Shown piece by piece: positions 1,125 through 33,434 of a stretch of DNA of 64,000 nt. Source of the stretch: Acidobacteriota bacterium (lineage in GTDB: Bacteria > Acidobacteriota > Thermoanaerobaculia > Gp7-AA8); assembly GCA_003223645.1 (NCBI GenBank), contig QHVT01000006.1, positions 1 through 64,000 of the forward strand, read 5' to 3'. The translations under genes were made by a program, and so were the position numbers. The stretch's first letter is position 1; each line of letters opens with the position of its first letter. Under the pieces are notes generated by a model. The model had not been told where the DNA came from. It saw only the letters and a list, made by a program, of their open reading frames with translations, and searched no databases.

Positions 1125-4100
1125 TCAGCTTCGAAGCGATGCGAAAATGACTGCGGCCTTCTCGCGCAGGGTAGGCGGCTGGTCCGCAAACACACCGCTC
1201 CCGCCTGCGTATGCCTCATTCACAGCGAGGACAAGGGACCGCCACAGCGGAACTTTGAGCGTGCCGACGACGTCCAGCGTTGCCTGTGACTGCTGCTTGA
1301 ACGACTCGGCCATCATCGGCACGAAGTACTCTTCGCCAAGCGGCGGCGGCTCGATGTCGTTGAGTTGAGCGATGTGCGTGATGTACGGTTGTGCCTGGGT
1401 CCACTTCCCTCGCTTCAGAAGGATCGTAGCGAGGGTGTGCTCACTGTGAATGTCCTTCGGACGCGCTTCGACGGCACGGAGGGCGAAGCTCTCGGCGTCC
1501 GCCATCTCGTCTATCAGATACAGCTGCCAGGCTACGTCATTAAGCGTGCTACCGTCGTTGCCCGAGTAATCCTTCACTTTTCGAAGGGCCTCGGCTGCCT
1601 GCTCTTCTCGTCCTGGAAGGTCGCGAGCGTGAATAGCGAAGGAGAGCATGGCCTTGACAGAGGACGGGTTTGCCTGCAGAGCTCGTTCGAGCGATCGTAG
1701 GGCCAGCCGCTTCTTTCCGATCGAAAGTTGAAATCGCGCGCGGCAGACCCAATTACCCTCGTCGTTGGGATCGAGTCGCGTTGCGTGGGAGAAGGCGCGG
1801 ATCGCATCTCCATGATGTCCCGACTGGGCATGGATATGGCCCAGCTGATGCCATACGACATCGTCAGCACGGCCGCTGCTGATGAGTTTCTCGAAAGCGG
1901 CTTTGGCCTGTTCGGGACGCGGAACCGTCGCGGCCAGCATGCCGATCATCCGCCAATCCGGATCGCCCTCCAGCCTCGTTCCCCAATCCAGGGCGCGCGC
2001 AGCCGCTCCGGCGATTTCTCCTGAGAATCCGACGAATGCGGCGCTGAGGAGGTAGCTGCGCGCCACCCGGTTTCGCAGCGGCGGATTGCCCTTGAAGAAC
2101 TCCATCGCCCGTTCGTAACGTTGAATGGCTTCGGCATGGCGGTCCCACTCGCTCAGACCGAGCGCAGTCAGGAGATCGAGTGACGCACGCTCATACTCGC
2201 TCCAGCGGGCCGTAACGCGCGATTCGACGGCTCTAAGATCGTCGACTCCGATGTCGAACCATTCGGCAGCATTCAGAAAACGTGTCAATTTCTCTTTCGT
2301 GTCCCGTTCCTGCTGTGTCGCCGGACGGGTCTCATCGACCAGCGCGCGTAACTCCTCGACCGGCTCTTCCTGCACGAGCATGGTGATCGCGGCCCGATAG
2401 CTATCGGCATAGAAGCCGGCCGTATCTAGCCAGCTCTGGAGGTTCAGCAATTCGAGCCGCAGGTTCGGCGGCAGCGGTTCCGGCACAACCTGCTCTGTGA
2501 GCACGCTTCGCAATCGTTGAGCAACGCTCGGCAGGTCGGGCGGCGGAGCCACCCGCCAGTTCAAACGGATGAACGCTCGAACGGTCTCGTGCAAATCGCC
2601 GCTGGCGAGGATCGAATGTCGCCGCGCCAGGTACCGGCTCCGTGGCCGGGCATCGTCGATACCCCAATAGCGCGCCAGCACTTCAGGCGTCGGGTGAAGA
2701 AGCAGGCCAATGGCGATGATGTCGCGGAAGTCGCCGGCGAGCTCGGGCCGATTCTGCAGGTGGAGTAGAAATCGGTCACTGATGGTCTCGATCGCCTTCT
2801 GCACCGCTTCCGATTCATCGCCATCGGTGTCAGCGTCGTCGATGTGCCCGAGGGTCTGAAGGACGTCCGAGCCCTGCTCGTGAAGATCGAGCAGGACGCG
2901 CAGCACGAGCGGAACGCCGCGCGAAAGGCGGTTGAGCGATTCCGCAAGCACCGGATCCGACGAGACGGGGGGCTGTACCTTCGCGAGCATCTGCGTCACA
3001 TCGCCGACGGTGAACAGAACGCCCTCGTCGAACCGCTGCAGACGAATGCGCGCGGTCGGAACAGTGGGGAGCCATCCGTCCTTCGAGCCAAGTGGCAACC
3101 CGACATCGGGAGCAATGCGGCTGCCGATCAGCAGCAGCAGGTGTGCGCCCGCGACGAGAGGCGGCGACATTACGTAGCGAAGCCACCCGTCCAGCTCCTC
3201 GCTGAGCAGTTCGCACGTGTCGAAAATGAACATGAGCGGCTGCGTGACACATGAAGCCTCGACGCAGCGACGGAGGGCGTTGCCGAGAAAAAGGCTCGGC
3301 GCAATGCGTGGATCGGAGGAGTCGCACGCCAGTGCCTCCGCCGCCCATAATGCGAACATCTGCCTGCTACGCGGCTGGCTGCCGCGCACGTGTTCGGCGG
3401 TAGTGTTGGCGTTTTTCAGCTGCTCTTCCATCAGGAAGACCCGCTTCGCGTAACGTTTATCCGAGGACGACGCGATCGTTACCTCCGGCGACTCGCGCCA
3501 GCGATCGCCGTAGCGCGCGAGCGTCACCAGAATATTCTGGAACTCGAACCGAAGCGACGAATGCTCATCAGCCGCTTCGCGCACGGCTGCCTCGGCATCC
3601 CAGTACACGTTGAGCGCCTCAATGCCACGGACCTGCGCGAGGCGCTCGGCGATAGCAGCAAACATTTCGGCCGGAATCACTGGTGGCTTTGTCAGCGGAG
3701 TTCGCCAGACCTGATCGTCCCAGTCGATCATGGCTACGGCAATTCCGCGTTTATGCGCCTCGATCGACGCGCGGCGCACCAGCCAGGTTTTACCCATGCC
3801 GCCGAACCCGTGGAGGAAGAACAGCTGTGCATTTGCCGCATAACTCGACGGCGCCCGGCCGGCGGCTCGTTCGGTAAGTCCCTTCATCGCGTCATCGAGC
3901 GCGCCGAGAAGATTTTCGCGACCGACGAAACGCGTTACATAACAATCGTCAGCCTCAAAATTCGGCGGCGGCGGCACTGTACGCTTTTGCGCTGGGGTCG
4001 GAGGAATTACGACGGCGCCGTTGTCCGCATCGAAGATCGACTTAAGAAACGCTGGCAGATCCGTGAAGTTTTCACCGTACGAAAGCACGCGAACGTGTGA

Positions 4101-4865
4101 TCCGTGTCGAGCTCGCGCGGCGTCAATATCGCCGCTGCGCACGAGTTGGTAGTGAATGTGGTCGACCCCTTCGAACGAACTGGAGACCCACGCAAGCAGC
4201 GTCTCGAAATTTGGGTCAGACAGACCCGCGCCGAAGCCGATGAAGAGTAGCGTTCGGGACCCCACCAGCAGCTGCTGAAGTGTCTGCGCCTGCTTCGATC
4301 CGAGGAGAGTTTCGTAGCTGTCGATGCCAAGTACCACTGAGTCGGAGTCATCCCAATATCCGTGCAGGTGGACAATACTCTTGGCGGCACGCGCAGGGTC
4401 GTTCAGGACGTCGAACACACGCGCGGGTTCGTGCCACGTAATCGCAGTTCGCCCGGTGATCGACTCTAACAAGCCGTCGTAATTCGTGGTAGCGATCGGC
4501 ACGCCTGCGCCGTGAAGCAGGTCGGCGACGTCAGTATGCTTTGCGACGAGCGCTCCCACGGTCTCGCGCAGCCAGCGTCGATATTCTTCCGGCTTCCTGC
4601 GCAGCAGGCGGCTCACCAGAGTGGCGACCGAGAGCAGGTCGTCGACAAGCGGGGATTCGAGCTGCTTCAGACGCTCCGCGACCCAAGCATCATCGATGTT
4701 GTGGTCCACGGCCACGTCCTGGCACCGCCGCAAGCCGTTTGCGAGCAATCCTTTCCATGAAGCGAGAGGCTCGCCCTGAGTGGCGTATAGCGACACGCCG
4801 GCACCGACAACAGGGATAACGTTCTTCCGCCTCTCCACGAGCTCACGTTTGAAGTCCTCGGACAT
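1125..4865 (-). CDS. SIR2-STAND-TPR protein, probable anti-phage NADase
   Basis: 1246 aa in three parts. Residues 1-280 are a SIR2-like domain with GAGVS (21-25), TTNYD (N128), HLHG (H166/H168) and a GFGAGLSDPNF motif near 210. The Asn and His needed for NAD cleavage in SIR2 effectors are present. Residues about 310-700 are a STAND-type ATPase with Walker A LHGFGGMGKT (K359) and a Walker B-like LMFIFDTCE. From about 900 to the end are TPR-like helical repeats (WHQLGHIHAQSGHHGDAIRAF). SIR2-STAND proteins (Avs5 and relatives) are known to sense phage proteins through the C-terminal repeats and deplete NAD. That function here is inferred from the architecture. It is a single gene with no obvious partner; decayed DNA follows on its 5' side. 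A regulatory STAND protein is the alternative. Confidence 0.88.
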   Translation of the reverse strand: MSEDFKRELVERRKNVIPVVGAGVSLYATQGEPLASWKGLLANGLRRCQDVAVDHNIDDAWVAERLKQLESPLVDDLLSVATLVSRLLRRKPEEYRRWLRETVGALVAKHTDVADLLHGAGVPIATTNYDGLLESITGRTAITWHEPARVFDVLNDPARAAKSIVHLHGYWDDSDSVVLGIDSYETLLGSKQAQTLQQLLVGSRTLLFIGFGAGLSDPNFETLLAWVSSSFEGVDHIHYQLVRSGDIDAARARHGSHVRVLSYGENFTDLPAFLKSIFDADNGAVVIPPTPAQKRTVPPPPNFEADDCYVTRFVGRENLLGALDDAMKGLTERAAGRAPSSYAANAQLFFLHGFGGMGKTWLVRRASIEAHKRGIAVAMIDWDDQVWRTPLTKPPVIPAEMFAAIAERLAQVRGIEALNVYWDAEAAVREAADEHSSLRFEFQNILVTLARYGDRWRESPEVTIASSSDKRYAKRVFLMEEQLKNANTTAEHVRGSQPRSRQMFALWAAEALACDSSDPRIAPSLFLGNALRRCVEASCVTQPLMFIFDTCELLSEELDGWLRYVMSPPLVAGAHLLLLIGSRIAPDVGLPLGSKDGWLPTVPTARIRLQRFDEGVLFTVGDVTQMLAKVQPPVSSDPVLAESLNRLSRGVPLVLRVLLDLHEQGSDVLQTLGHIDDADTDGDESEAVQKAIETISDRFLLHLQNRPELAGDFRDIIAIGLLLHPTPEVLARYWGIDDARPRSRYLARRHSILASGDLHETVRAFIRLNWRVAPPPDLPSVAQRLRSVLTEQVVPEPLPPNLRLELLNLQSWLDTAGFYADSYRAAITMLVQEEPVEELRALVDETRPATQQERDTKEKLTRFLNAAEWFDIGVDDLRAVESRVTARWSEYERASLDLLTALGLSEWDRHAEAIQRYERAMEFFKGNPPLRNRVARSYLLSAAFVGFSGEIAGAAARALDWGTRLEGDPDWRMIGMLAATVPRPEQAKAAFEKLISSGRADDVVWHQLGHIHAQSGHHGDAIRAFSHATRLDPNDEGNWVCRARFQLSIGKKRLALRSLERALQANPSSVKAMLSFAIHARDLPGREEQAAEALRKVKDYSGNDGSTLNDVAWQLYLIDEMADAESFALRAVEARPKDIHSEHTLATILLKRGKWTQAQPYITHIAQLNDIEPPPLGEEYFVPMMAESFKQQSQATLDVVGTLKVPLWRSLVLAVNEAYAGGSGVFADQPPTLREKAAVIFASLRS

Positions 4866-5632
4866 TGGGCCGCCTCTGTTTGCGATGAAGGTAGTGTACC
4901 AAGAGGCAACGTGTCCCCTTACCGGCGTGATCGTTGCGCGCTTTCGCGTATTACCAGGTCGATGTGATCAGAAGCGCGGGTCGGACATGCGTTGCTGTTT
5001 CGCCGCGAGATTCCGCACCTGACGAATGTCAGCGCGCTGGACGATCGGCTGTTCACTTGCTCGCCGTGCCAGCGGCAGGGCGATGGATGGAGTCGTTGCG
5101 CGTGCGCGTTTCCCTTAATCGCTGCCGCGCGGCTGTACCACATCGCGGCGGTCTTCTGCAGCACGGAACGATCGTAACAGCATCGCAAGACATTTACGCG
5201 ATCTGCCGAAGATGTGCGGTGAAAGTGCCCACAACCTTCAACGCTTCCCTCGCTCCCGAACCACTTTGTGTTTGAAGAATAGTTATCGCAGCACCATCGC
5301 ACCATGCTCAAAGCCGCCAATCGCATCGCTGTTCGCGCTTGCAGTTACACAGTTATTGAGCACCTATTCCGTGGAACATTGGGGGATGGTGTGTGATGTT
5401 CCACGCCGCATGAGATTCGCATGCTTCCGGTCTCACGGAATAAGAGCTTGCGACTTCCCAAGACGTTGCATTCCATAGAGTACAAGAAGCCCACGTGGCA
5501 GTTGGTGAGTGCTTTAGATTGGCGGGGCCGACGGGGCTCGCGCTCGCGCCCTCCGGCCTGACGACCGGAGGTCACCGAGCGTGGCGAAGAAGATCGAGAC
5601 GCGCATCTCGATCTTCTTCACCGATGATCACT
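4866..5632. other. Gene-poor interval, 770 bp
   Basis: I find no convincing gene. Reading frames of 60-135 codons exist on both strands, but they are rich in Arg, Ser and Cys and show no motif, which is typical of chance frames in GC-rich DNA. The only clear structure is the perfect inverted repeat at 5586-5619, preceded by a CTCCGG...CCGGAG hairpin around 5550-5569. Confidence 0.6.
5586..5619. repeat. Perfect 14-bp inverted repeat with 6-nt loop
   Basis: The arms GAAGAAGATCGAGA and TCTCGATCTTCTTC flank CGCGCA. No T-run follows on either strand, so it is not a textbook intrinsic terminator. It sits just 3' of the gene remnant at 5633-5995 (minus strand). Confidence 0.7.
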
Positions 5633-7649: not shown

Positions 7650-10151
7650 TCAGTCCGCGGCGTCGCGCAGCTCCGTGATGTGCACGCGCTTGACGTTCGC
7701 ACCAGCCGGCGATGCGTCGGTGAATGCCGGCGCTGCCATTCCCAACACGGCTCGCGCCTCGGTCGCTGCTGTTCGCAGCGCGCTGATGTGCGATTCGCGG
7801 ATCACTGCGCCCGCGCCGAACGTACCGTCGAATGCGAAGGGCGGGAGGGAGGCGGTGGCGCGGAGGGCGTTGATCGCGTCGCGCAACTCGGTGAAATGCG
7901 CGAGCTTGATCGGCGTCACGCCGGCATCGAGCGTCGGGTCGGTATAGATGACCGCGGTGTCGATGTTGGATTGCTGGATTTGAGCGGAGACCGTGGCGTC
8001 GAGGCGATAGTCGTAGACGACGCCATACGTGAACGGACCGTTGTCGAACGGCGAGCCTGTCGACCAGCTGGCGACGGCCGACCACGGCACCGTTCCATGA
8101 ACGCGCCGGTACATCGTCGTCGCTGTGGTTCCTTGCGGGACGAGCGCAGGAACGAAGACGGTGAGGCCGGATGCGCGCGCATCGATGGTGCCGGGCGAGT
8201 TGGGCATCACGGTCAGCGTGAACGACGTCGAGCCGGAGAGGTAGTTCGCGTCGCCGGCATACACGGCTGTGTATTCGTAAGCTCCGCGCGGCAGTGTGGC
8301 GGTGATCGTCGCGACGCTGTTCGTGATCGCGCCGCTGCCGACTTGCGTCGCTCCGCGGAAGAGCGTGATGGAGCCGGTCGGTGACGTCGGCGTATTCGTG
8401 TTGATCTGAATCGTGTGCGCCGTTCCCTGGCGCACGTTCGTGTCGCCGCTCTTCGCGAGCGTCACGGAGTGTTTGGCCGTCGTGAAGTTGTAGACCAGCG
8501 AGCTCGCAGGAGGATCGAAGAAGCCGCCGGGATATTCGGCGGAGATCGTGTGCGGGCCGGCGTTCAGAGTCAGTTGGGCGGGGATGGAGCTGTAGCGATT
8601 CGCACTTTCGGCGATGCCGTCGATCGTGAGTCTGTAATAGTCGTAGGCGCTCATGCCCCGCGGCATGATCGTCGCGTAGACGTCGAACGGCTCAGCGTGC
8701 GTCGAGGGATTGATTGTGAGGATGATCGAGCTCGGAGTGGTGACGACTCGCTCGAGGAAGCCCGCGGACGTCGCCGTGCTCACTACGGAGTTGCCGTTGA
8801 ATACGGCAGTGACCGTGTGATCGCCCGCGCCGAGGCCGGCGTAGTCGAGCGAGGCGAAGCCGGTTGCGTCGATGTCGACGGTGCCGAAGGTGGTCGCGCC
8901 TTCTTTGAAGGTAACTGTTCCGAGCGGCGCAGGGATGCTCGAAGAGATCCCTGCGACGGCGGCGCGGAACTTCGCCGTCTGCCCCGTCGAGATCACGCGG
9001 TTGACGTCATAGCCGATCACCTGCGATGCGCACGAATAGTCGTGAATGAAGAGCTGCTGATAGCTGCCCGTGGCGAGCTCGAGATCGCTGTCGGCGTCGA
9101 AGTTCCCCCAGACGATGGAGCCGGTGACGGTGCTCGGAAGCGAGGACCACGTCGCCGAGCGAAAGGATCCGTTGCCTTCGCCGAGATACGTCACGACCGC
9201 GGTTCCGTTGGCCGGGCCGGCGATGATGTCGGGGTGCGTGTCGGCGTTGATGTCGACCAACTGAATCGAATTGAGATTGCCGTAGGACAGACCCGGCATC
9301 CTCCCGTTCAGGATCTGACGTGAGAACGTACGGTTGCCGAGGTTGCGGTAGACGTTGATCATGCCGTCGTCCCAGTTCACCGCCGCGAGATCGGTGAAGC
9401 CGTCGTGATCGAAGTCGGCCGTCGCGATCGCTGCAGGCCAGGCACCGGCCGGCAGAGAGACCGGCGACGCGTACGTTCCGTCGGCGTTGCGGAAGTAGAC
9501 CTGCAGTTGCTCGCTCATGCGCCGGGCGAGCGCGACGTCGAAGCGGCCGTCGTTGTCGAAATCGGCGACCGTGTTGTCCGTCGTCCAATCGTTCGCATCG
9601 TTCGTGACGCGCCGGACCTCGGTGAACGTGCCGTTGCCATTGCCGCGATACAAGACAAACACGCCGAACGTCGAGACGACGAGATCGACGTTGCTGTCTC
9701 CCTCGTTGAAGTTTCCGATCTGGATGTCGGACGGGAGAACGTCGAGATTGTTGACGATGGCGGAGCCGAATCCGCTCGGTCCGCCGGGGCGCACCGAGAT
9801 GTGGAACTCGCCATCTGCTATTACGAGGTCGTCGTAGGCGTCGTTGTTGACGTTGACGATCTGAAGATCGAGGACCTGCGTCGCGCCGAGAGAGACGGCG
9901 GTCTCGAACGTGCCGTCGCCGACGCCGCGCCACGAGTAAAGACTCGCGTCGTTGTTGGCGTCGCGGATCGTGCCGATGAGATCGAGCTTTCCGTCGTGAT
10001 CGTAGTCGGTCGTGTGGAGGTTCTCCACGCTGGACAGGTAGCCGCTCAGTGTCTGCTTGAGAGTGAACGTGACGTTGGGGCAGGGATCGCCGGTCACAGC
10101 AGCAGCGATGGAGAGAGCGCAGAGGAAGCCGAAGACGAGCGAGCGGTACAT
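7650..10151 (-). CDS. Secreted FG-GAP/VCBS-repeat protein with Ig-like domains
   Basis: 833 aa with a signal peptide (about 1-21). Residues 40-370 carry repeated FG-GAP/VCBS motifs with Ca-binding D-x-D-x-D loops (DYDHDGKLDLIG, DFDNDGRFDVALAR, DFDHDGFTDLAAVN, DINADTHPDIIAG), predicting a seven-bladed beta-propeller. Residues 390-660 hold Ig-like (Big_3/5-type) domains (GDHTVTAVFNGN, GAYEYTAVYAGDANY). The last 100 residues carry three H-x-x-E-L-R-like units (HFTELRDAINALR, HISALRTAATEAR, HITELRDAAD). Probably cell-surface or secreted and adhesive. It contains no enzyme motif. Confidence 0.9.
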   Translation of the reverse strand: MYRSLVFGFLCALSIAAAVTGDPCPNVTFTLKQTLSGYLSSVENLHTTDYDHDGKLDLIGTIRDANNDASLYSWRGVGDGTFETAVSLGATQVLDLQIVNVNNDAYDDLVIADGEFHISVRPGGPSGFGSAIVNNLDVLPSDIQIGNFNEGDSNVDLVVSTFGVFVLYRGNGNGTFTEVRRVTNDANDWTTDNTVADFDNDGRFDVALARRMSEQLQVYFRNADGTYASPVSLPAGAWPAAIATADFDHDGFTDLAAVNWDDGMINVYRNLGNRTFSRQILNGRMPGLSYGNLNSIQLVDINADTHPDIIAGPANGTAVVTYLGEGNGSFRSATWSSLPSTVTGSIVWGNFDADSDLELATGSYQQLFIHDYSCASQVIGYDVNRVISTGQTAKFRAAVAGISSSIPAPLGTVTFKEGATTFGTVDIDATGFASLDYAGLGAGDHTVTAVFNGNSVVSTATSAGFLERVVTTPSSIILTINPSTHAEPFDVYATIMPRGMSAYDYYRLTIDGIAESANRYSSIPAQLTLNAGPHTISAEYPGGFFDPPASSLVYNFTTAKHSVTLAKSGDTNVRQGTAHTIQINTNTPTSPTGSITLFRGATQVGSGAITNSVATITATLPRGAYEYTAVYAGDANYLSGSTSFTLTVMPNSPGTIDARASGLTVFVPALVPQGTTATTMYRRVHGTVPWSAVASWSTGSPFDNGPFTYGVVYDYRLDATVSAQIQQSNIDTAVIYTDPTLDAGVTPIKLAHFTELRDAINALRATASLPPFAFDGTFGAGAVIRESHISALRTAATEARAVLGMAAPAFTDASPAGANVKRVHITELRDAAD

Positions 10152-10486: not shown

Positions 10487-10584
10487 ATTTTATGAGCCGC
10501 GAGTTTTTGAGACGGTCTGCTGCGCCACCGCTTTTCTATACGGGTATACAAAAGCGGCAGCGATGCTGCCGCAGTCCAAAGGGG

Positions 10585-11937
10585 TTATGGTGCCAGGATG
10601 CGCTCGAGCCAGGCGAGCGTGCGCTCGTTGTCTGGGTCGATGCCGGTTTTCACGAGCTTCTCGTCCTGCAGCACGGCGCAGCTGCGGATGGCGCGCTGTT
10701 CGGCGGTCGAGAATTTTCCGTCGACGATTTCGGTGCGTGTGTAGCAGGCGTTGCGGCGGAGGAAGATTTCGATTCCTACGCGCGCGAGTTTGCTCTCTGC
10801 GCCGGTAGCGCCTTTGGCAATTTCGTCGAGGACCGTGTTGTCGATGCGAATGTTGCGGGGCGGGCGGGTGGAGAGGGTGGTGGCGATGCGCGATACGCGT
10901 GATTCCACCGGCGCGGGGGCGCGTGGGGGCTCGGTGGTGGTTTCCTCGATTGGTGCGCTGGTTGTGGTCGTCGTGGCAGTGGTATCGGGTTGTGCGGTGA
11001 CTGTTTTGCGAATGACGTAGACGTTGTAGGCGATCCAGAGCAGCAGAACGAGAACGACGATCTGGAACGCCGGCTCGATCATTTCTTTCCATGTGGGGGC
11101 GGGCGCGGATTCGGGAGCGGGCGTCGTCGTTTCGCGCATCGGTTTGGTCTCCACCGGTTTCGATTTCGCTCGCGGTTTCGGGGCGGGGCGTCCGCGTTGG
11201 GTGCGTAGCTCGTGCGCCATGCGCCACGCGGTCACGACGTCCGAGGAGGCGTTCTCCACGAGGTCGCTGACGTCGAATGCGTTGGCTGCGCTGCGCGGCG
11301 GGTCGTATCGGTCGTTGAGGATCCATTGATAGCCGGCGCCGTTGAAGCGGCCGGGCTGCAGGTGCGCGGTGGCGGGATCGACGGGGCCGAGGATGTAGAG
11401 CCACGGCAGAAGGTCGAGCAGTTGCGGAGTGAGCTCGACTTCGATCGCGCGTCGATGCGGCGGCGGTACCGACCATGCGCGCGCGAGCTCGTTCGTGAGC
11501 GCGCCGCGCAGCGTGTCGTCGCGCAGTCGATGGGTTTGTATTTGTTCGAGGAGCTTCGGCCAGCGTTTGCGATCGAAGAGACGTTCGGCCTGATCGTTTG
11601 CGCGCTCGACGAGCTCCGTCGTTTTTGCAGGATCGGAGAGCGTGGGCCAGAACAGCGGCAGCGCGACGGGCGGGATCGCGCGATCGGTCCACAGTCCCCA
11701 CAGCGTCCATGCGCCGAAGCGTTTCGAGGCCGCGCTGACGACCCAGCCGATCGCGCCGATCGTGCGGCCGCCGCCGACGGTGAACTGATGCACGAACGGG
11801 CCGCCGGTGCCGTCCGGCAATCGCGAGAGCGCGCTGCCCAACGGCTCGAAGTAGTCGAGATACTCGCGCAGGCTGATGGACTGCCCGCTGTTCGCGACGT
11901 AGTCGCCGCGCAGCTCGCGAAACTCGCTCTCAGCCAT
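10585..11937 (-). CDS. Single-pass membrane protein, third gene of the SEDS-PBP operon
   Basis: 450 aa, family not recognised. Residues 1-250 form a soluble, probably cytoplasmic domain (GGPFVHQFTVGGGRTIGAIG, WTLWGLWTDRAIPPV). A basic, Pro-rich linker at 250-285 is followed by one membrane helix (about 288-308). After that comes a Thr/Pro-rich stretch and a small C-terminal domain with two Cys (C398, C420) that would lie outside the membrane. Its ATG overlaps the stop of the GTPase gene by 8 nt, so the two are almost certainly translationally coupled. The layout suggests a membrane anchor or adaptor linking the GTPase to the periplasmic PBP. That is inference from gene order only. Confidence 0.8.
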   Translation of the reverse strand: MAESEFRELRGDYVANSGQSISLREYLDYFEPLGSALSRLPDGTGGPFVHQFTVGGGRTIGAIGWVVSAASKRFGAWTLWGLWTDRAIPPVALPLFWPTLSDPAKTTELVERANDQAERLFDRKRWPKLLEQIQTHRLRDDTLRGALTNELARAWSVPPPHRRAIEVELTPQLLDLLPWLYILGPVDPATAHLQPGRFNGAGYQWILNDRYDPPRSAANAFDVSDLVENASSDVVTAWRMAHELRTQRGRPAPKPRAKSKPVETKPMRETTTPAPESAPAPTWKEMIEPAFQIVVLVLLLWIAYNVYVIRKTVTAQPDTTATTTTTSAPIEETTTEPPRAPAPVESRVSRIATTLSTRPPRNIRIDNTVLDEIAKGATGAESKLARVGIEIFLRRNACYTRTEIVDGKFSTAEQRAIRSCAVLQDEKLVKTGIDPDNERTLAWLERILAP

Positions 11938-13237
11938 GTCGCCTCAAAATCTCGAGCAGCAGCAGGTCGCCCCACACCGGCAGTCCGTCGTCGCCGTCGC
12001 CGCCGGTCTGCAGGAACTCGAGTCCGCACGGCAGGACGGGGAAGCGCAGCTCCGTTCCCGGCATCATCGACTCGCGAATCATCGGCGCAAAGTCTCCGCG
12101 TCCGGCGTTGTCCCACGCGGCGAACAGCGCCGCGGCGACGCGCATCGTGGCATGCACGAGCTTTTCGCCGAGGCCGTCCATGAACGTGTAATAGAACTCG
12201 GCATTGCCGTGATGGAAGCGCGCCGGCAGCGCGTTGTACGCGATCATGATCCGGTAGAGGAGCCAGGTCAGACTCTCCAGCAAATCGAGGTTCGCTGTCC
12301 AGCCTTGCTTCTGCTGCACGAGCCGCTCGAGATCAGCAGTCGCCGCGACGAACTTGCTGTCGAATACGTTGTCGGCGCCTTCGATGACGCGCTGCGCGAG
12401 TGCTGCCGCGTCGTTGCTGCTTGCGAGAAATGCGAGCAGATCCTCCGCGCTACGCAGTTGCGCCTGATCGAGATGCGTCCAGATCACGCCTTGCCACGCG
12501 CCGCGCGACCCCGGCTCATTCGTGAGGTGCGACGTGAGCTGGCCGATGTTCTGGCGCGAGCGCGTCGGATCGAAGGGCACGACGAACATGACGAAGAGCT
12601 CCGCGAACTTCATCGCGCGGAGGTTCTTCAGGATGTCGAGGACACGCATGTACTTGTCGGGCGTGGTGGTGCGCTGATGAAAGACTTCGCCCTTGATGTC
12701 GATGCCGGCGATGTCGATGGCGCGGCGCTGAAACGTCAGCCGCATGCCGTGCAGGAGGATCGGGATCGCGGTGCGCGGATCGGGATTGGCGATCGTGTAC
12801 GGCTCGATGTAGTAGTACGGATCGCGGCTGATGAGACTCGTCGGCTCGGCGATGAGATGCTTCTTCTGCGCGGGATTGAACAGGCATTTCAGCCAGGTGG
12901 TCTTTCCCGCCTCGGGCATGCCGGTGGTGATGAGCAGCACGCGCGACTTCGCTTCGCCGAGAAATTGCGGCGGCAGCAGCGACGCGCAGTTCGCGCAGCG
13001 CACGTGCTGCGTTGCAACCGGCGCGAGGTCGAACGTCGGCTGGTCCCACGCGAGGCGCGGCTCGTTGAACGCGACCTCGGCGTTCTCCGGCAGGCCGCGA
13101 TAGCGCTTCCACTGCGGCTGGTTCGCGAGCTGCTGGTGCCACGTGTCGGCGCGGCCGAGGGGGACGTGACGAAAATACGATCCGCCGCAAATGGGACAGC
13201 GCGCGTGTTTCGTCCACTTCGTGGTGACCTCCGCCAT
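11930..13237 (-). CDS. Zinc-ribbon P-loop GTPase-like protein, second gene of the operon
   Basis: 435 aa. Two CxxC pairs (C14/C17, C81/C84) form a split zinc ribbon. Then comes a P-loop GMPEAGKTT (G106-T113), a DIAG motif (175-178) that fits the G3/Walker B position, and THLD (254-257) that could be a modified G4. The remainder is helical. It resembles the TRAFAC-like double-GTPase families described around bacterial conflict and membrane systems, but I cannot place it in a named family. It starts 2 nt after the stop of the SEDS-PBP gene and overlaps the next gene. Probable role: a nucleotide-dependent switch acting with the cell-wall synthase (inference). An ATPase is the alternative. Confidence 0.8.
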   Translation of the reverse strand: MAEVTTKWTKHARCPICGGSYFRHVPLGRADTWHQQLANQPQWKRYRGLPENAEVAFNEPRLAWDQPTFDLAPVATQHVRCANCASLLPPQFLGEAKSRVLLITTGMPEAGKTTWLKCLFNPAQKKHLIAEPTSLISRDPYYYIEPYTIANPDPRTAIPILLHGMRLTFQRRAIDIAGIDIKGEVFHQRTTTPDKYMRVLDILKNLRAMKFAELFVMFVVPFDPTRSRQNIGQLTSHLTNEPGSRGAWQGVIWTHLDQAQLRSAEDLLAFLASSNDAAALAQRVIEGADNVFDSKFVAATADLERLVQQKQGWTANLDLLESLTWLLYRIMIAYNALPARFHHGNAEFYYTFMDGLGEKLVHATMRVAAALFAAWDNAGRGDFAPMIRESMMPGTELRFPVLPCGLEFLQTGGDGDDGLPVWGDLLLLEILRRHG

Positions 13238-13239
13238 CG

Positions 13240-16200
13240 CTATCGTCCCGCTCCTTCACTTTCGAGCAGCCGCACCAGCTCCGATTGATATCGCTCGATG
13301 AACCGGCCGGCCTGCGCGGTCGCGAAGCCGGGCGAGGATCGTTCGGCGACGAACGACAGAGTAATCGCATTCCGCGGCGTTCCATCGGCGTTGCGTTTGA
13401 TGATCACGATCATGATGCGAGACGTCGGACGGTCGCGATCGATCGTCGAGAGCGTTCCGGTTTTCGCGTAGATCTCATACTGCGCGGCGAGCGGCGCGAG
13501 GCGGTTGCGAATGGAGATCGCCGTTCCGTCGTCGATGACGCGCTTGAGTCCCGTGCTGAGTTTTCGCGCGGCCGCGTTCGCGGCATCGTCGAATGCGGCG
13601 GCGCGCGACGGCAGCGGCACGGTCGCGCTGTCGCGCGCGACGACGTGCGGGACGACCGGCTTGCGCATCGCCCACGACGAGAACGCGGCGGCCGCGGCGA
13701 TGTTGGACCAGCGGCTCGATGCGCCGCCGAGGAGCACGGCGACGAACTCGCGGGTGTCGTGAATGCGATTCAGGCGAAGGTCGACCGCTTCCGGACTGAT
13801 CGCCGCCATCGGCTCGAGTCCGTTGCTCGCGCGCAGGTCGTCGCGCTCGTCGCCCGACCAGAACGACAGGAGGTAGCGTCGCTGATCGCCTTCGGGCGGA
13901 GGCGCTCCGGTGCGCGCGCCGAAGAGGTCGCGCATCTTCGTCGCCACCGGCTGCTGATGGAGATCGGCGAGATGGCTGGCGTGATCGCGTGAATTTTCTG
14001 TCGAGTCGGGGAGCGCGGGATAGCGGTTCCATGGCGTGGAGCTGCCGGTGAGCGACTCGCGTCCGCTGATCGAGCGTCCGCGTCCGTCGTCGGCGATCGC
14101 GTTCGCGTTCTCGCGCGCGAGGCTGAGGAACCCGAGTCGCGTGTGATAGCGATTGTCGGACGCGGCGAGATACGTGCTGAAGTCGATCCAGCGCGGGAAC
14201 GCCGCGACCTGCCACCCTTTCTTCGCCATCTCGACGCCGAACATTTGTCGCTCGTAGCAGCGCTGGTTCGCGACGCGGTCGCAGTCGCCGTTGTGCACGA
14301 AGAGCTGGCGATCGAGACTCGGATGAACAGTCAGCGCGGCTGTGGCCCAGAACGGCTTCGCCGCGGAGCCCATCTCGATCGCGGTGAAGTTGTGATCGAC
14401 GGCGTGGTGCGACGCGAGCGCGCGCGGCGCCGACGTTTCGAGCCAGGTGACCGGCGGCTCGAACTCGCGCCACGTTTGTTTCCCGTCGCTGGCCGTCTGC
14501 GAGCTCCATCGATCGCCGGACGCGGGCCGCGGCCACGAGCCCATCGCCAGCGTCTCGCCATTCGTCGCGCGCATGATCGTGATGGCGACGCGCGGCGGCA
14601 GCGCGGCCGGCGCGCGCTGTGCGGTCAACCCGCCGAATAGCTCGCGTCCCGCCGCTTCCGCTGTCGCCTGCGTCACGCGTTGCAGATCGGCATCGAGCGT
14701 GAGCTGCGTCGCGCGTGCGCGCTGTCCGCTCCGCACGCGAAACAGCGCCGCGCCGGCGTCGTGAATCCATCCGAGTCCGAGGCGGCGCGCGTCGACGCTC
14801 GGCGCGTAGACCCAATGTCCCATCACCCACGCGCGCCCGAGGATCTCGACCGGCCCGCTGCGCCCGCGAATGGACACCGGTTGCAGTTGCTCTTCCTTCA
14901 AGTCCTCGGCGAACGAATGCACGACATTGAAATCGGGATTGCCGGTGATCTCGTACGCCAGCTCCGGCTCGCCTTCGCTCTCGCTTTCGATGCGGTTGAT
15001 CGTGAAGACGCTCGGCCGCTCGCGCACCGCGCGCTCCGACTCCGCCTGCCACAGCTCGAACATGCGCGTGTAGTAGTCGTTCGGCGACGCGACGTCGAAG
15101 AATGCGGGCGGCAGCGACTCGCGCCCGCCGTTCATCCGCAGGCGCTCCGGCATGGCGTTGAAGCGCAACACTTCCGCTTCGAGCAGCGTCGCGCCCGACG
15201 GACGATCCGTCATCTTGCCGTCCGCGCCGCGGAAGGAGATCCGTTTCGTCGACGGATCGAAGTGCAGCGTGCCGTTATCCTGCAGCTCGTCGACGCGGCG
15301 GAGAAGGCGCGACCACGTCAGCACGTCGTATTCGTCGGAGCGAATCGCGCGCACCGAGCCGCGGACGACGAGCACGATGACGAGAATCGCCGGCAGCAAC
15401 GCGAGCGTCGCGACCTCGCGCGTGCGCAGCACGATCGCGAGCGGGATCGCGCAGGCGAAGGCGAGCCATGCGAAGTCTTTGGTCACGAACGCGGCGATCG
15501 CGCCCGCGGCGATGATCGCGCCGAATGCGAAGTGCCGCGCGCGCCGCCGTCCCGCGTACGCGAACGCCGGATCGAAGACATTTTTCCGTGTGACCAGCGC
15601 CTCCGGGATCGTGTCGGCCGAATCTGCGTGCAGGCGCGAAGACCAGAGCAGCGCCTGACACATCAGGCCGAGAAGAATGCCCCAGCGGACGATGTCGGAG
15701 TTCGACGACGTCGCGAGCAGCGGCAGGTTGCGTCCGGAGAACCAAAGCTGCGCGACGTTCATCGCGGCGTGCGCGGCGGCCTCGCCGAGGAGCGCGGCGG
15801 CGATCACGAGCGCGAGCATGTCGCCGGCGCGCAGACTCTTTCGGCGCATCAACAACAAAAGCGCGGGCGCCGCGAAGATCGCCAGCAGGAGCAATCCGCC
15901 GATCGCGCCATGCTCGCCGACGACGAAGAAGCTGTACACGCTGTCGTACTGAATCGTGTCCTGGCGAATGAACGACTGCTCGGCGGGCGCGCGATTGAAC
16001 CCGAGGCCGAACCATCCGCCTTTGCGGACCATCGCCAGGTGCTCCCACTCGTGCACCAGCGCATTGCGCACGTTTGCGGCGGTCACCGCTTTCGCGTCGC
16101 CGGCGGACGGAGCTTCGAGATCGAGCAGCCACTCCTGCGCCGACGAGCCGTGCTTCATCACCTCGACGCGGCTGAGAATGTGCTCCGTCATTCCGGGCGC

Positions 16201-18531
16201 GACCGCGTACGTTCCGAGGAGCGCCCAATACGCGACGGCGACGCCGGTGACGATGACGATCAGCAGCGTTCCGGCCATGCGCAGCGCCGGCGTGAGCAGC
16301 AGCAGCAACGCGAGCGGGAGGAGGAAGGCGAGGACCATGTAGATCGCGCCGAAGTCGCCGAGGGCGGCGAACATGACGGCGATCGGCGCGAAGGCGAGAA
16401 GGACAATCGCCGCGATCGTGTCGGGCAGCGCCGGCTCGGTGGCGACCGCTGCTCCGGCGTCGAGCACGCGCAACGCGTCCTCGGTGAGCGCGAGCGGACG
16501 CGCGAGCAGCACCAGCGCGGGAATGCCGAGAATCCAGAACGGCGCGACGATCTGCCGCGTGTACTCCGGCGCGAGGCGCGACAGCGCGAGGATGGCGATC
16601 GAGCCGGCGATCCAGATCAGAAACGGGCGTTTCAATGCCGGATGGCGCAACGCGCTCCAGACGTGAAGCACCGGCTGCGGGAGAATGGTGCGCGCGCCCC
16701 CGCCCTCAGGCGCGCCGGAGGCGCGCACCACTCCCGCGTCGCCGAGGTTGCGCCAGAACGTGCGCCCGATCTCGAGCATGACGCGATAGGGAATCTGCCA
16801 GAGCTTCGCGAGCGAGTTGCGGATCGGAAGCGCGCTGACGATCGCGATCGCGGCGATCAGGTAGACGACGAGCAGCATGCGATCGAGCGGAGACGAGCCG
16901 AATCGGGCGGCGGCATTCGGCAGCACCTGCTTCGGCATCACGACGAGCTCGATCGCGGAGAGCGCGGCGAAGATCAGCGCGACAAAAATCGTGACGTTCC
17001 TGCTGCGCGCGCTCGGCGGAACGCCGGGGCGGTGATGCAGCCACAGACGGACGGCGAGCGTGATCAGGCCGGGCACGATCACGAGCGACGCGAGCGTGCC
17101 GGAGAGACCCTTGACCGTCACTTCGTCGACCGCGGCCGGCGCGAGGAGATAACGCACCGCCAGCATCACGCGAAACAGCAGCAGCGTCCAGACGGCGACG
17201 AGCACGCCGCCGATGCACCAGAGATCGCGAAGGCGCAGCCGCTGCGCGCTGCCGAACGCGATCGATGCGACGAACAGCGCCAGCGCGAGCCACGCGGAGA
17301 CGAGCGCGAGGAAGAGAGCGCGCGGCGTCGGAAGATCGCGCACCATCGCGATGGTGAGGATCAGTCCGCGCGACGATGCCGCACGCAGCGGAATCTCGAC
17401 GGTGGAGAGTGTGCGATTCGGCTCCAGCGCCGCGGCGAGCATGCCACCGCTCTTCATCCATCGCGGCGCATCGGGTCGCGCAGCGGGGACGTGATCCCTT
17501 CCGTCGCGGAAGCGCGGCAGACCGGCGGGCGAGATCTGCACCGCCTCGTCGTGGCGAAAGTCGGGTGCGCCGTGGCCGAGCGGAAGGAGGAACGTGTTCT
17601 CGCCGACGGCCGCCTCGCGCGCGAAGGAGAGCGAGCTCGCGCCGTCGCGCAGCGGCGGCAGCGAAGTGGTGCGCGTCCATGGCGGCTCGAACGAGACGCG
17701 CGTCGCGCCGCCGTCGGCGGCGACGTGCATGCCTAAGCGCCGGCGCGGCCAGAGAATCTCGACCTTGGAAGAGGGCGCGATGGCAAGCTCGCGCCACGCT
17801 TCGCCGTCCATCACCAGCCGCAGCTCGTCATCGTCGGGCATGAGAATGCGCAGCGAGCCCGCCCACTCTTCGAGCGCGTGAATCGTCGCGAGATCGATCG
17901 AGCCGTCGCGGCGCAGATCGTTGAGACGCGGGACGAGCAGCGAGTCGAGCACGCGCACGCGCGTCGCGTGCACCGGCGGCGGATCGATGACGACGAGCGG
18001 CTCCGCGACCGGCGTGCGGCTGATTTTCAGTTTGCGCCGCCGCAGCCAGCCGGTGCGCGCGAGCTCGATCGAGAACTTGCCGATCTGCTTCGCGCCTCCG
18101 CCGAGCGTGATCTTGTCGCCGTTCGCGTACTCACTGCCGGCGCGCACGAGCGCTTCGCCGCCGCGCGTCCGCAGGTGCAGGTTGCCGTCCGTGCCCGGCG
18201 CGATCTGGACTTCCGGCAGGAAGTTGCCGTTCGGCCAGCCGAGGATCGCGGAGTGCTCCGCGCCACCGATCGAGAGCATGCCGGTCGTGCGATCCGACGT
18301 CTGCGCGCCGATCCACGCGACCTGCGTCGAGCGCGGCCACTCCGCGAGCGACGCCAGCGGCACGATGACGATCGCGATTCCGATCAACGCCGCCACGAGA
18401 ATCACGATCACCGGCGGGACGTGCCGCGAGTGCTGCAGCGACGGCAGCAGCTCTTCGCGGTGGCGAAACTCCACGAGCCACGCGATGAGAAGCGATGCAA
18501 AGACCACGGTCGCCAGGAGCGGCAGTGTCAT
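13240..18531 (-). CDS. SEDS glycosyltransferase-PBP transpeptidase fusion
   Basis: 1763 aa. Two helices (1-21, 40-62) are followed by a long beta-rich soluble region (64-400) and then about 16 membrane helices (404-1057). The stretch at 838-879 (GGWFGLGFNRAP, then QYDSVYSFFVVGEHGAIGG) matches the FtsW/RodA signature. D863 aligns with the catalytic Asp of SEDS polymerases. Residues 1060-1270 resemble a class B PBP dimerisation domain. The transpeptidase domain has SAAK (S1389, K1392), SDN (1458-1460) and KTG (1690-1692), so all three catalytic motifs are intact. FtsW/RodA and their PBPs are normally separate proteins; here one chain could polymerise and cross-link peptidoglycan. Residues about 601-613 (VVRASGAPEGGGA) are encoded by palindromic repeat D. 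First gene of a three-gene operon. Confidence 0.9.
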   Translation of the reverse strand: MTLPLLATVVFASLLIAWLVEFRHREELLPSLQHSRHVPPVIVILVAALIGIAIVIVPLASLAEWPRSTQVAWIGAQTSDRTTGMLSIGGAEHSAILGWPNGNFLPEVQIAPGTDGNLHLRTRGGEALVRAGSEYANGDKITLGGGAKQIGKFSIELARTGWLRRRKLKISRTPVAEPLVVIDPPPVHATRVRVLDSLLVPRLNDLRRDGSIDLATIHALEEWAGSLRILMPDDDELRLVMDGEAWRELAIAPSSKVEILWPRRRLGMHVAADGGATRVSFEPPWTRTTSLPPLRDGASSLSFAREAAVGENTFLLPLGHGAPDFRHDEAVQISPAGLPRFRDGRDHVPAARPDAPRWMKSGGMLAAALEPNRTLSTVEIPLRAASSRGLILTIAMVRDLPTPRALFLALVSAWLALALFVASIAFGSAQRLRLRDLWCIGGVLVAVWTLLLFRVMLAVRYLLAPAAVDEVTVKGLSGTLASLVIVPGLITLAVRLWLHHRPGVPPSARSRNVTIFVALIFAALSAIELVVMPKQVLPNAAARFGSSPLDRMLLVVYLIAAIAIVSALPIRNSLAKLWQIPYRVMLEIGRTFWRNLGDAGVVRASGAPEGGGARTILPQPVLHVWSALRHPALKRPFLIWIAGSIAILALSRLAPEYTRQIVAPFWILGIPALVLLARPLALTEDALRVLDAGAAVATEPALPDTIAAIVLLAFAPIAVMFAALGDFGAIYMVLAFLLPLALLLLLTPALRMAGTLLIVIVTGVAVAYWALLGTYAVAPGMTEHILSRVEVMKHGSSAQEWLLDLEAPSAGDAKAVTAANVRNALVHEWEHLAMVRKGGWFGLGFNRAPAEQSFIRQDTIQYDSVYSFFVVGEHGAIGGLLLLAIFAAPALLLLMRRKSLRAGDMLALVIAAALLGEAAAHAAMNVAQLWFSGRNLPLLATSSNSDIVRWGILLGLMCQALLWSSRLHADSADTIPEALVTRKNVFDPAFAYAGRRRARHFAFGAIIAAGAIAAFVTKDFAWLAFACAIPLAIVLRTREVATLALLPAILVIVLVVRGSVRAIRSDEYDVLTWSRLLRRVDELQDNGTLHFDPSTKRISFRGADGKMTDRPSGATLLEAEVLRFNAMPERLRMNGGRESLPPAFFDVASPNDYYTRMFELWQAESERAVRERPSVFTINRIESESEGEPELAYEITGNPDFNVVHSFAEDLKEEQLQPVSIRGRSGPVEILGRAWVMGHWVYAPSVDARRLGLGWIHDAGAALFRVRSGQRARATQLTLDADLQRVTQATAEAAGRELFGGLTAQRAPAALPPRVAITIMRATNGETLAMGSWPRPASGDRWSSQTASDGKQTWREFEPPVTWLETSAPRALASHHAVDHNFTAIEMGSAAKPFWATAALTVHPSLDRQLFVHNGDCDRVANQRCYERQMFGVEMAKKGWQVAAFPRWIDFSTYLAASDNRYHTRLGFLSLARENANAIADDGRGRSISGRESLTGSSTPWNRYPALPDSTENSRDHASHLADLHQQPVATKMRDLFGARTGAPPPEGDQRRYLLSFWSGDERDDLRASNGLEPMAAISPEAVDLRLNRIHDTREFVAVLLGGASSRWSNIAAAAAFSSWAMRKPVVPHVVARDSATVPLPSRAAAFDDAANAAARKLSTGLKRVIDDGTAISIRNRLAPLAAQYEIYAKTGTLSTIDRDRPTSRIMIVIIKRNADGTPRNAITLSFVAERSSPGFATAQAGRFIERYQSELVRLLESEGAGR
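16687..16734. repeat. Palindromic repeat family D, copy 1, inside the SEDS-PBP gene
   Basis: GC-rich inverted repeat (GGTGCGCGC...GCGCGCACC) in the linker between membrane helices of the fusion protein. It adds about 16 codons (VVRASGAPEGGGARTI) without breaking the frame. The other copy is at 20261-20322 in the M61 peptidase gene. Confidence 0.8.
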
Positions 18532-18587
18532 CGTCTTAGGTTTCTACGTAAAAAACGCGCGCGGGATTTAGCCGTACGTTGCGGAGC

Positions 18588-18660
18588 CTCCAGGCCTCCG
18601 AGCCTCCCGGCCTCCAAGATTTCCTTTGAGGCTTGGAGGCCAGGAGGCTTGGAGGCTACT
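18588..18660. repeat. Inverted GAGGC-rich repeat (family G)
   Basis: Short GGAGGCTTGGAGGC-type units in inverted arrangement between the divergent SEDS-PBP and M61 genes. The promoters of both must lie in or beside this 143-bp gap. A similar array of GAGGCTCA units is at 62769-62866. Confidence 0.7.
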
Positions 18661-18674
18661 ATCCCCCCGCGCGA

Positions 18675-20453
18675 ATGCCGCATTATCTCGTCAGCTGGAC
18701 GAACCCGCACGATCGGCTCCTCGAGATCACCCTTCGCTTCACCGCACCCGCCGATACGCCGCGTCTGCTTCTGCCGGCCTGGCGTCCCGGCCGTTATCTC
18801 ATTCAGAACTACGCGGCGAACGTGCGGGAGTGCACAGCGGGCGAGCATCGCATCCGGAAAGAGGCGAAGTCTTCATGGCGCGTGGATGCGCGGGCGGGGG
18901 AGGCGGTCACGGTCACGTATCGCTACTACGCGGGCGTGCTCGATGCCGGTTCGTCGTTTCTCGACGACGACGAGGTGTACATCAATGGCTCGAATCTGTT
19001 CATGCTCGTGGACGGACTGCGCAGCGAAGAGCATCGACTGACGATCGCGGCGCCGGCGGAGTGGAGGATCGAGTCGCAACTGCAATACGCTGTCATCCTG
19101 AGTCGCGAAGACGGCGAAGGACCCCCGGCCGGCAGCGCGAGCAGCGTCCTTTCGCCGGGGGTCCTTCGCTCCGCTCAGGATGACACGAATTACGTTGCCC
19201 GCGATTACGACTATCTCATCGACTCGCCGATCATCGCCGCCGCGACCATGACGCGGCATACCTTCGACGAAGCGGGGGCGCGGTTTCACATGATCTATCG
19301 CGATGACCGGGGGTTCGACACGGAGCAGTACATCGAGCCCACGCGCGCGATCATCCGCACGCAGGCGCAGCTCTTCGGCGGATTGCCGTTCTCCGAATAT
19401 CGATTTCTCTATCACGTCCGCGAGAAATGGCACGGCGTTGAGCATGAGGACTCGTGCTCGATCATCCTCAAGCGCAGTGCCCTCGGCACCGCGGACGACC
19501 GCACGCTGTCCATCAGCGCGCACGAGCTGTTCCACGCATGGAACGTAAAGCGGATGCTGCCGGCCAAGTTCCATCCCTACGATTACTGGAACGAAACACC
19601 GACGCGCCTCTTGTGGGCGATGGAAGGGCTGACGTCGTATTACGGCGATCTGTCGCTCGTGCGCGGCGGTGTGTGGGATGAGGTGCGGTATCTCGAGCAT
19701 CTGCGCAAGGAGATCGAGACGCTCGAAGGTCTGCCCGCGCGGTTGCATCTGCCGCTTTCGCAGGCGAGCTTCGACGGCTGGCTCAGCGATCCCGCGCAAA
19801 TGCACGATCACGCGAACGCGTGGTACTCGTTCTACACGAAGGGGGAGATCGTCTCGATGCTGCTCGATCTGACGATTCGCCGCGCGACGAACGGCGCGAA
19901 GTCGCTCGACGACGTGCTCCTGCTGCTGTGGGACAAAAAGATTCTCGAAGAGGACGCGGTAGAACGGGTCGTTGAGCAAGTCGCGGACGTCGGCGACTTC
20001 TTCGCGCGCTACGTCGACGGAGTCGAGCCGCTGCCGTACGCGGAATTGTTCGCCGCCGCCGGTGTTGCATTCGCGTCCGCTCCGCGCCCGGGCTCCTCCC
20101 TCGGCGCAAAGGTGAAAATGGTCGACGGTTTGCTGACAATCGAAAGCGTGCTGCGCGGCGGCGCGGGAATGGACGCGGGACTCCTGCCGAACGACGAGAT
20201 GCTCTCGCTCGACGGCACGCGCATCAACAGCGAGGGCGCACTGGAGACAGCGCTGGCCGGAGTGGTGCGCGCCTCCGGCGCGCCCCCGCCCGGAGACGCG
20301 CCGGAGGCGCGTACCACTCCAGTTGAGCTCCTGATCTCGCGCGCCGGCGTCTTGAAGACGCTCGCGCTCGAAGCGCGTCCCGATCCGCGTCCGCAGATTA
20401 CGCTGCGCATCACCGGGCCGAGCGAGCTGAGAAAACAATGGCTATCGAATTGA
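18675..20453 (+). CDS. M61-family metallopeptidase with PDZ domain
   Basis: 592 aa from ATG 18675. That start gives the family N-terminus (MPHYLVSWTNPHDRLLEI); the upstream ATG at 18633 lies in a repeat. Zinc motif HELFH at 283-287 with the third ligand E317 (AMEGL), as in glycyl aminopeptidase M61. A PDZ domain spans about 470-570. No signal peptide is seen. Residues 139-172 are encoded by palindromic repeat A and residues 530-548 by repeat D. Both are in frame and fall outside the catalytic core, so the enzyme is probably active. Followed by a short membrane protein gene that overlaps its 3' end by 16 nt. Confidence 0.92.
   Translation: MPHYLVSWTNPHDRLLEITLRFTAPADTPRLLLPAWRPGRYLIQNYAANVRECTAGEHRIRKEAKSSWRVDARAGEAVTVTYRYYAGVLDAGSSFLDDDEVYINGSNLFMLVDGLRSEEHRLTIAAPAEWRIESQLQYAVILSREDGEGPPAGSASSVLSPGVLRSAQDDTNYVARDYDYLIDSPIIAAATMTRHTFDEAGARFHMIYRDDRGFDTEQYIEPTRAIIRTQAQLFGGLPFSEYRFLYHVREKWHGVEHEDSCSIILKRSALGTADDRTLSISAHELFHAWNVKRMLPAKFHPYDYWNETPTRLLWAMEGLTSYYGDLSLVRGGVWDEVRYLEHLRKEIETLEGLPARLHLPLSQASFDGWLSDPAQMHDHANAWYSFYTKGEIVSMLLDLTIRRATNGAKSLDDVLLLLWDKKILEEDAVERVVEQVADVGDFFARYVDGVEPLPYAELFAAAGVAFASAPRPGSSLGAKVKMVDGLLTIESVLRGGAGMDAGLLPNDEMLSLDGTRINSEGALETALAGVVRASGAPPPGDAPEARTTPVELLISRAGVLKTLALEARPDPRPQITLRITGPSELRKQWLSN
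19090..19186. repeat. Palindromic repeat family A, copy 2, inside the M61 gene
   Basis: The complete hairpin (GTCATCCTGAGTCGCG... to ...CGCTCAGGATGACA) lies within the open reading frame and is translated as about 32 residues (VILSREDGEGPPAG to VLRSAQDD). Its length is a multiple of three. Confidence 0.9.
20261..20322. repeat. Palindromic repeat family D, copy 2, inside the M61 PDZ domain
   Basis: Inverted repeat GAGTGGTGCGCGCCTCCGG...CCGGAGGCGCGTACCACTC, encoding about 19 extra residues (VVRASGAPPPGDAPEART) in the loop before the last PDZ strands. Confidence 0.9.
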
Positions 20454-32735: not shown

Positions 32736-32777
32736 GCCGCTTCGATGCTATCTTCCTGTGAATCGCGACGCGCTACG

Positions 32778-33434
32778 ATGCTGCCGTTCAGCCAGACGCT
32801 CACTCCCGAGAAGGGGTTGATCTTCCGGATCACGCATCGAGACAACCTGCCCTGGATTCTGACGAATGGCCTGCACTGCCAAAGCTCAGGCATTACCGAT
32901 CCTGACCACGTCTCGATTGGCAACCCTGAGCTCATCGCGCTTCGCCCGAATCGAGAGGTCGACATCGCTCCGGGCGGAACTCTTGCGGACTACATTCCGT
33001 TCTATTTCACACCCTACAGCCCGATGCTCTTGAACATCAAGACAGGCTACGCAGGAATCCAGCAGCGCAACAATGAGGAAATCGTTGTGCTCGTGAGCTC
33101 GCTCGATGCTCTCCGGTCGAACAGCGTGCGCTATGTCTACACCGACCGGCACGCGTACCTCCGGACGGCAAGATTCTTCGACGATCCGGCGCAACTCGGC
33201 GTGGTCGTAGACTTCGGTCCACTCCAACGGCGCGACTTTCAGCGAGATCGGGAGCGGCCTGACAAGGTGGAGCGGTATCAGGCCGAAGCCCTCGCGTATC
33301 GGTTCGTTCCCGTCGAGGCGTTGCTCGGCATCGGCTGCTACACTGCTGCCATCAAGACACAGCTGGAGACCGCCTGTCGCGAACTTGGAGTCCAGGTGAA
33401 GTTCGTTCACCGCGCGGAGTGGTACTTCTCATGA
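32778..33434 (+). CDS. darT: DarT-type DNA ADP-ribosyltransferase toxin
   Basis: 218 aa from ATG 32778 ([20 protein letters not shown]). Matches DarT: an N-terminal [20 protein letters not shown] helix-loop, the [15 protein letters not shown] segment of the NAD site, and a VYTDRHAYL region. DarT uses NAD to ADP-ribosylate thymine in single-stranded DNA, which blocks replication, and some members stop phages. Its stop overlaps the darG start in ATGA. Confidence 0.93.

Follow-up and report, generated by a model that had tools for sequence, protein, structure and literature searches.

Genomic organization of the locus

The window (the whole stretch of DNA analyzed, 64,000 nucleotides of Acidobacteriota contig QHVT01000006.1) carries three closely spaced genes of 1763, 435, and 450 codons on the minus strand at 10585-18531 (ORF list). 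As the initial annotation reported, the first two are separated by a 2-nt gap, and the second and third overlap by 8 nt. The features of the unit are as follows.

13240..18531, minus strand: fusion gene encoding a 1763-aa SEDS-like/class B PBP protein (ORF, relatives, folds)
11930..13237, minus strand: 435-aa GTPase-like protein with CxxC...CxxC, P-loop, and DxxGE motifs (motif inspection, motif alignment with DO-GTPases)
10585..11937, minus strand: 450-aa single-pass membrane protein, probable adaptor (ORF, hydropathy, no family found)
10554..10572, minus strand: terminator-like hairpin at the end of the three-gene unit, just 3' of the 450-aa gene

Upstream, in divergent orientation, is a gene for an M61-type peptidase. 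Next to the operon, a gene at 7650-10151 (minus strand) encodes FG-GAP repeats together with bacterial Ig-like domains. Elsewhere in the window we identified a 1246-aa SIR2-like/AAA/TPR protein (1125-4865, minus strand) that resembles the defense proteins ThsA, LmuA, and Dsr1, and a DarT-type ssDNA thymidine ADP-ribosyltransferase (32745-33434, plus strand; E 2e-50). DarT-type toxins are usually paired with DarG. The GC content of positions 12001-20000 is ~66.7%, versus ~63% in most of the window, and the Ala/Leu-rich membrane gene may contribute to this rise. Long antisense ORFs, such as 14680-17736 on the plus strand, were taken as by-products of high GC.

A SEDS-like membrane protein and a class B PBP in one chain

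In the textbook view, SEDS polymerases and class B PBPs are separate partners (FtsW-FtsI, RodA-PBP2). In the 1763-aa protein, as initially proposed, a single chain holds both a SEDS-like membrane part and a transpeptidase of the class B PBP type. Its parts are listed below.

18355..18528, minus strand: two N-terminal transmembrane (TM) segments, residues 2-59 (hydropathy, charge counts over relatives)
17332..18342, minus strand: beta-rich region, residues 64-400, probably extracytoplasmic (model, charge pattern)
15622..17217, minus strand: SEDS-like membrane core, residues 439-970 (VIA-align to FtsW 8bh1, Z 10.5, rmsd 4.1 over 221)
15943..15945, minus strand: Asp863, catalytic-type Asp in ECL4 (invariant in 13 members; aligned to FtsW and canonical SEDS)
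15358..15414, minus strand: TM segment 1040-1058, likely PBP anchor (hydropathy)
13261..14736, minus strand: transpeptidase domain, residues about 1266-1757 (class B PBP fold, Z 31.7)
14356..14367, minus strand: SxxK motif, S1389-K1392 (motif check, 13-member alignment)
14152..14160, minus strand: SxN motif, 1458-1460 (motif check, 13-member alignment)
13456..13464, minus strand: KTG motif, 1690-1692 (motif check, 13-member alignment)

The loop between the first two TM segments is short and positively charged in every family member with a complete N terminus. This pattern suggests an N-out, loop-in topology for the pair and would thus place the beta region that follows TM2 outside the cell. 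Beta strands are indeed predicted in this region, in line with the initial description, and are best modeled over about residues 68-290. A by-eye idea that it is an FHA domain was dropped: Pfam gives it no support in the 13 sequences, and an outside location is what the charge pattern suggests. In the SEDS-like protein of one relative (L068 3112-5007, genome G835), a polysaccharide deacetylase domain (PF01522, E=1.3e-19) is inserted in this probably extracytoplasmic region, which would fit a peptidoglycan setting. The putative pedestal region of the PBP half is poorly modeled.

Single-sequence searches of Pfam, NCBIfam, and PDB with the window protein returned nothing useful. Specifically, there was no match at E<=1 to PF01098 (FTSW_RODA_SPOVE), the profile on which the initial annotation had staked its SEDS assignment. 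SEDS homology nevertheless stands, because relatives, the family profile, and the fold agree. The fused nearest relatives L064 and L066 match PF01098 above cut-off (7.6e-11 and 1.8e-8), and L066 also matches TIGR02614 ftsW (E 4.1e-14). A PDB search by family profile ranked FtsW first (E 0.003), and the profile also picks up canonical SEDS genes in many genomes; profile-profile comparison with the canonical SEDS profile gave a probability of 88%. The AlphaFold model of residues 1-1079 used for the fold is of low confidence (mean pLDDT 53.7). Among 985 aligned chains, ranks 1-3 were FtsW, FtsW, and RodA (Z 10.5, 10.2, and 9.4; next 7.7), and the Foldseek list taken alone gave a weak FtsW match (E 0.04). 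Via relatives, profile, and predicted fold, the SEDS homology of the membrane part is firm.

The SEDS signature described initially is present only in part. Asp863, within QYDSVYSFFVVGEHG, is in place: its counterpart in the FtsW/RodA motif HTDFIF is the Asp, D297 of Escherichia coli FtsW, a putative catalytic residue (PMC8765783). Together with D726, G728, N925, G933, S943, and D946, it is invariant in all 13 members. Missing, in the alignment to canonical SEDS, is the SYGGSS motif of ECL5, which reads ATSSNSD in the window protein and is replaced family-wide by a pattern ending in S.SD. The changes Y379A and G380A in SYGGSS abolish the function of E. coli FtsW (PMC8765783), so the glycan polymerase activity predicted for the 1763-aa protein may be altered or lost. 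Given the replaced loop, we do not class the protein as a FtsW or RodA. The membrane part could even be a scaffold or regulator that does not polymerize, leaving the transpeptidase as the sole active half, and the replaced SYGGSS, the low overall identity to SEDS, and the lack of a Pfam match for the window protein all point that way. However, the invariance across 13 members of Asp863, the D726-G728 pair, and the other four residues suggests a maintained site, and we regard loss of the polymerase as improbable.

In the PBP half, the complete triad initially read from the sequence (SAAK at 1389, SDN at 1458, KTG at 1690) was confirmed and is invariant in 13/13 members. When the C-terminal part was shuffled 20000 times, an ordered, correctly spaced triad arose 3 times. 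Alignment to class B PBP structures gave Z 30-31.7 over about 320 residues. The window protein misses the PF00905 cut-off (11 bits versus 22.1), which the relatives L021 and L027 do reach. With its transpeptidase fold and ordered triad, this part is a class B PBP half.

A rare family with fused and split members

Counting the window protein, 13 members were compared; they come from Acidobacteriota and Verrucomicrobiota and share ~15-36% identity with it. A phylum-wide search recovered a 1759-aa protein of the same architecture in genome G218, whereas G014, a genome of the same taxonomic family as the window, and G173 carry split versions. Scanning genomes with the PBP alignment brought in the Verrucomicrobia members, and G061, G596, G522, G546, and G835 were found by profile search. 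Because four further genomes (G218, G596, G522, and G546) share the fused architecture, the fusion is not an assembly error. In the PBP tree, the window protein clusters with the fused proteins of G596, G522, and G546 (support 100/100), and a branch supported at 94/94 keeps all five fused rows to one side. A single origin of the fusion is possible on this tree, which has long branches.

Members are scarce in all groups searched: five clear ones, including the window, among 396 Acidobacteriota genomes, four (G218 included) among the 162 genomes of the class of G218, and one beyond the query genome among the 241 genomes of the phylum of G499. A genome of the same genus (G001) has no match to the synthase, nor did a plasmid tblastn search and a viral contig scan return one. 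Literature searches, mostly of open-access papers, turned up no natural SEDS-PBP fusion. The best reading is a new, rare SEDS-PBP subfamily.

The genome also encodes separate ftsW/rodA and PBP genes, a point raised in the initial annotation, in a murD-ftsW-murG locus and a PBP2-rodA locus. With normal FtsW and RodA encoded elsewhere, the fusion protein is an extra synthase. Since each of the 13 carrier genomes has at least two canonical SEDS genes, the septal or elongation role initially suggested is not indicated.

The GTPase-like and single-pass membrane proteins

Motif inspection bears out the split zinc ribbon and P-loop initially ascribed to the 435-aa protein. The cysteine pairs are C14/C17 and C81/C84, and a Walker-B-like DIKGE motif lies downstream of the P-loop, which is placed as follows.

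12899..12922, minus strand: P-loop GMPEAGKT, residues 106-113 of the 435-aa protein (inspection, motif alignment with DO-GTPases)

The G4 motif is poor or degenerate. The protein matches neither DO-GTPase1/2 nor any other GTPase profile, and its assignment as a DO-GTPase by hhalign was set aside as weak (probability 6.6%). In its zinc-ribbon cysteines, P-loop, and DxxGE, the protein resembles DO-GTPases, and on these motifs we consider it a putative GTPase. No orthologue of the gene was found in 60 relatives or in the 12 genomes carrying the synthase family. For the window itself, a gene of the nucleotide-switch type beside the synthase is supported.

In the 450-aa protein, a single TM segment is predicted (291-309), consistent with the single pass initially described. 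Profile searches found no recognized relative or family for it, and neither a GAP1-type identity nor equivalence to the 569-aa protein of G014 gained support. It is a probable adaptor.

Signaling genes beside the synthase in relatives

Strictly, the three genes do not stay together, as the 435-aa gene lacks an orthologue in the relatives searched. What recurs instead is a synthase with a signaling module: of the DO-GTPase2/GAP1 type in two loci, and with kinase and/or PP2C genes in others. In G014, a DO-GTPase2 (1.5e-9) and a GAP1-N2 (5e-4, below cut-off) are encoded upstream of the split SEDS and PBP, in the order zinc-ribbon DO-GTPase2, single-TM protein, GAP1-N2-like protein, second zinc-ribbon P-loop-like protein, two-TM protein, SEDS, and PBP. 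In G596, a DO-GTPase2 gene (1.2e-9) is two genes upstream of the fused synthase, with a 1140-aa gene between. PP2C/SpoIIE-LysM and weak kinase-like genes follow the synthase in G218 and G173, a PP2C-like gene is near that of G835, and a kinase gene (1.9e-43) lies between the SEDS and PBP genes of L026. The contigs of G522 and G546 end too near the synthase to show neighbors. A 562-aa protein with a DO-GTPase2 domain and a long N-terminal region is encoded in G010 (L069, 571-2259).

The modules vary from locus to locus, and the GTPase-like gene of the window was not found with relatives. The GTPase-like and membrane genes might therefore be unrelated passengers, with only the fusion protein meaningful. 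This is quite unlikely in our judgment: the spacing is tight (2-nt gap, 8-nt overlap), one terminator-like hairpin is common to the three genes, and similarly laid-out GTPases occur beside two other synthase copies.

DO-GTPase/GAP1 loci have been described as conflict systems, of which the GAP1-N2 type is assigned to the vicinity of the membrane and wall; kinase and PP2C genes feature in one theme of these loci (PMC7159879). FtsW, RodA, and penicillin-binding protein do not appear in the text of that study (Kaur et al. 2020). If the synthase were the effector or protective arm of such a DO-GTPase-centered system, a sensed invader would provoke local or aberrant wall synthesis. The placement of these loci as conflict systems would suit this idea, as would the DO-GTPase2 genes beside the synthase in two carriers (with GAP1-N2 too in one), the rare and patchy distribution, and the caspase, CHAT, trypsin, and kinase genes that surround the Verrucomicrobia copies. 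However, neither GAP1 nor a known effector domain occurs in the window operon, PADLOC gives nothing convincing within it, and several loci lack GTPases and have kinase/PP2C genes instead, as in ordinary growth control. We therefore think a conflict function unlikely. In a Verrucomicrobiaceae MAG (L028), caspase-domain genes at 3236-5065 and 11390-14770 flank the SEDS-PBP pair.

A possible signal-gated accessory synthase

Overall, we lean toward an accessory, signal-gated peptidoglycan synthase, whose operon also encodes a putative GTPase-like switch and a probable membrane adaptor. The three genes would form one transcription unit, in which the 1763-aa chain unites a predicted glycan polymerase of divergent SEDS type with a class B PBP transpeptidase and so would hold polymerization and cross-linking permanently at 1:1. 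Sensing or binding of the wall is the probable task of the beta region, on the outer side of the membrane in this reading. The GTPase-like protein may act as the switch in the cytoplasm, and the single-pass protein may relay the state of the switch through the membrane to the synthase. Coupling of the synthase in relatives to DO-GTPase2/GAP1-type or Ser/Thr kinase/PP2C modules would make signal-gated wall synthesis a stable theme. Beside normal FtsW and RodA, the role would perhaps be to strengthen or mend the wall when the cell is stressed or attacked. Of the self-contained synthase with a nucleotide switch first proposed for this locus, the SEDS and PBP homologies, the fusion, and the switch-type neighbor hold, whereas three-gene conservation and a FTSW_RODA match of the window protein itself do not.

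Tentatively, and with considerable doubt, these loci could represent a new class, in which a fusion synthase with a remodeled polymerase site exists alongside the normal systems, is switched by interchangeable GTPase or kinase modules like those of bacterial conflict systems, and makes wall synthesis a regulated defense or stress output. The coupling and activation of SEDS polymerases and class B PBPs are still under study in general, and a single-chain version fixes their stoichiometry. A natural single-chain synthase is also a ready construct for structure and assay. The exchange of GTPase for kinase modules on one synthase offers a direct test of cytoplasmic gating of wall synthesis and, if true, would give DO-GTPase loci, for which few outputs are known, a concrete enzyme as output.

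Comparison with known systems

Like RodA-PBP2 and FtsW-FtsI, the window protein pairs a SEDS-like fold and catalytic-type Asp with a class B transpeptidase with a full triad. It differs in being one polypeptide with two extra TM segments and a large beta region, in its replaced SYGGSS loop, and in being additional to normal FtsW and RodA.

In Actinobacteria, rodA and pbpA are linked with pstP, the kinase genes pknA/pknB, and fha genes (PMC6554272). Some relatives described here also have SEDS and PBP genes beside Ser/Thr kinase and PP2C genes. However, RodA and PbpA of the actinobacterial pstP-rodA-pbpA-pknA-pknB-fha locus are canonical and unfused, and what accompanies the window copy is a GTPase-like gene, not a kinase gene.

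With DO-GTPase/GAP1-N2 systems, the operon shares a zinc-ribbon GTPase-like protein with a Walker-B Glu, and a membrane partner, and DO-GTPase2 proper is encoded beside the synthases of relatives. The GTPase-like protein of the window differs from them in matching no family profile.
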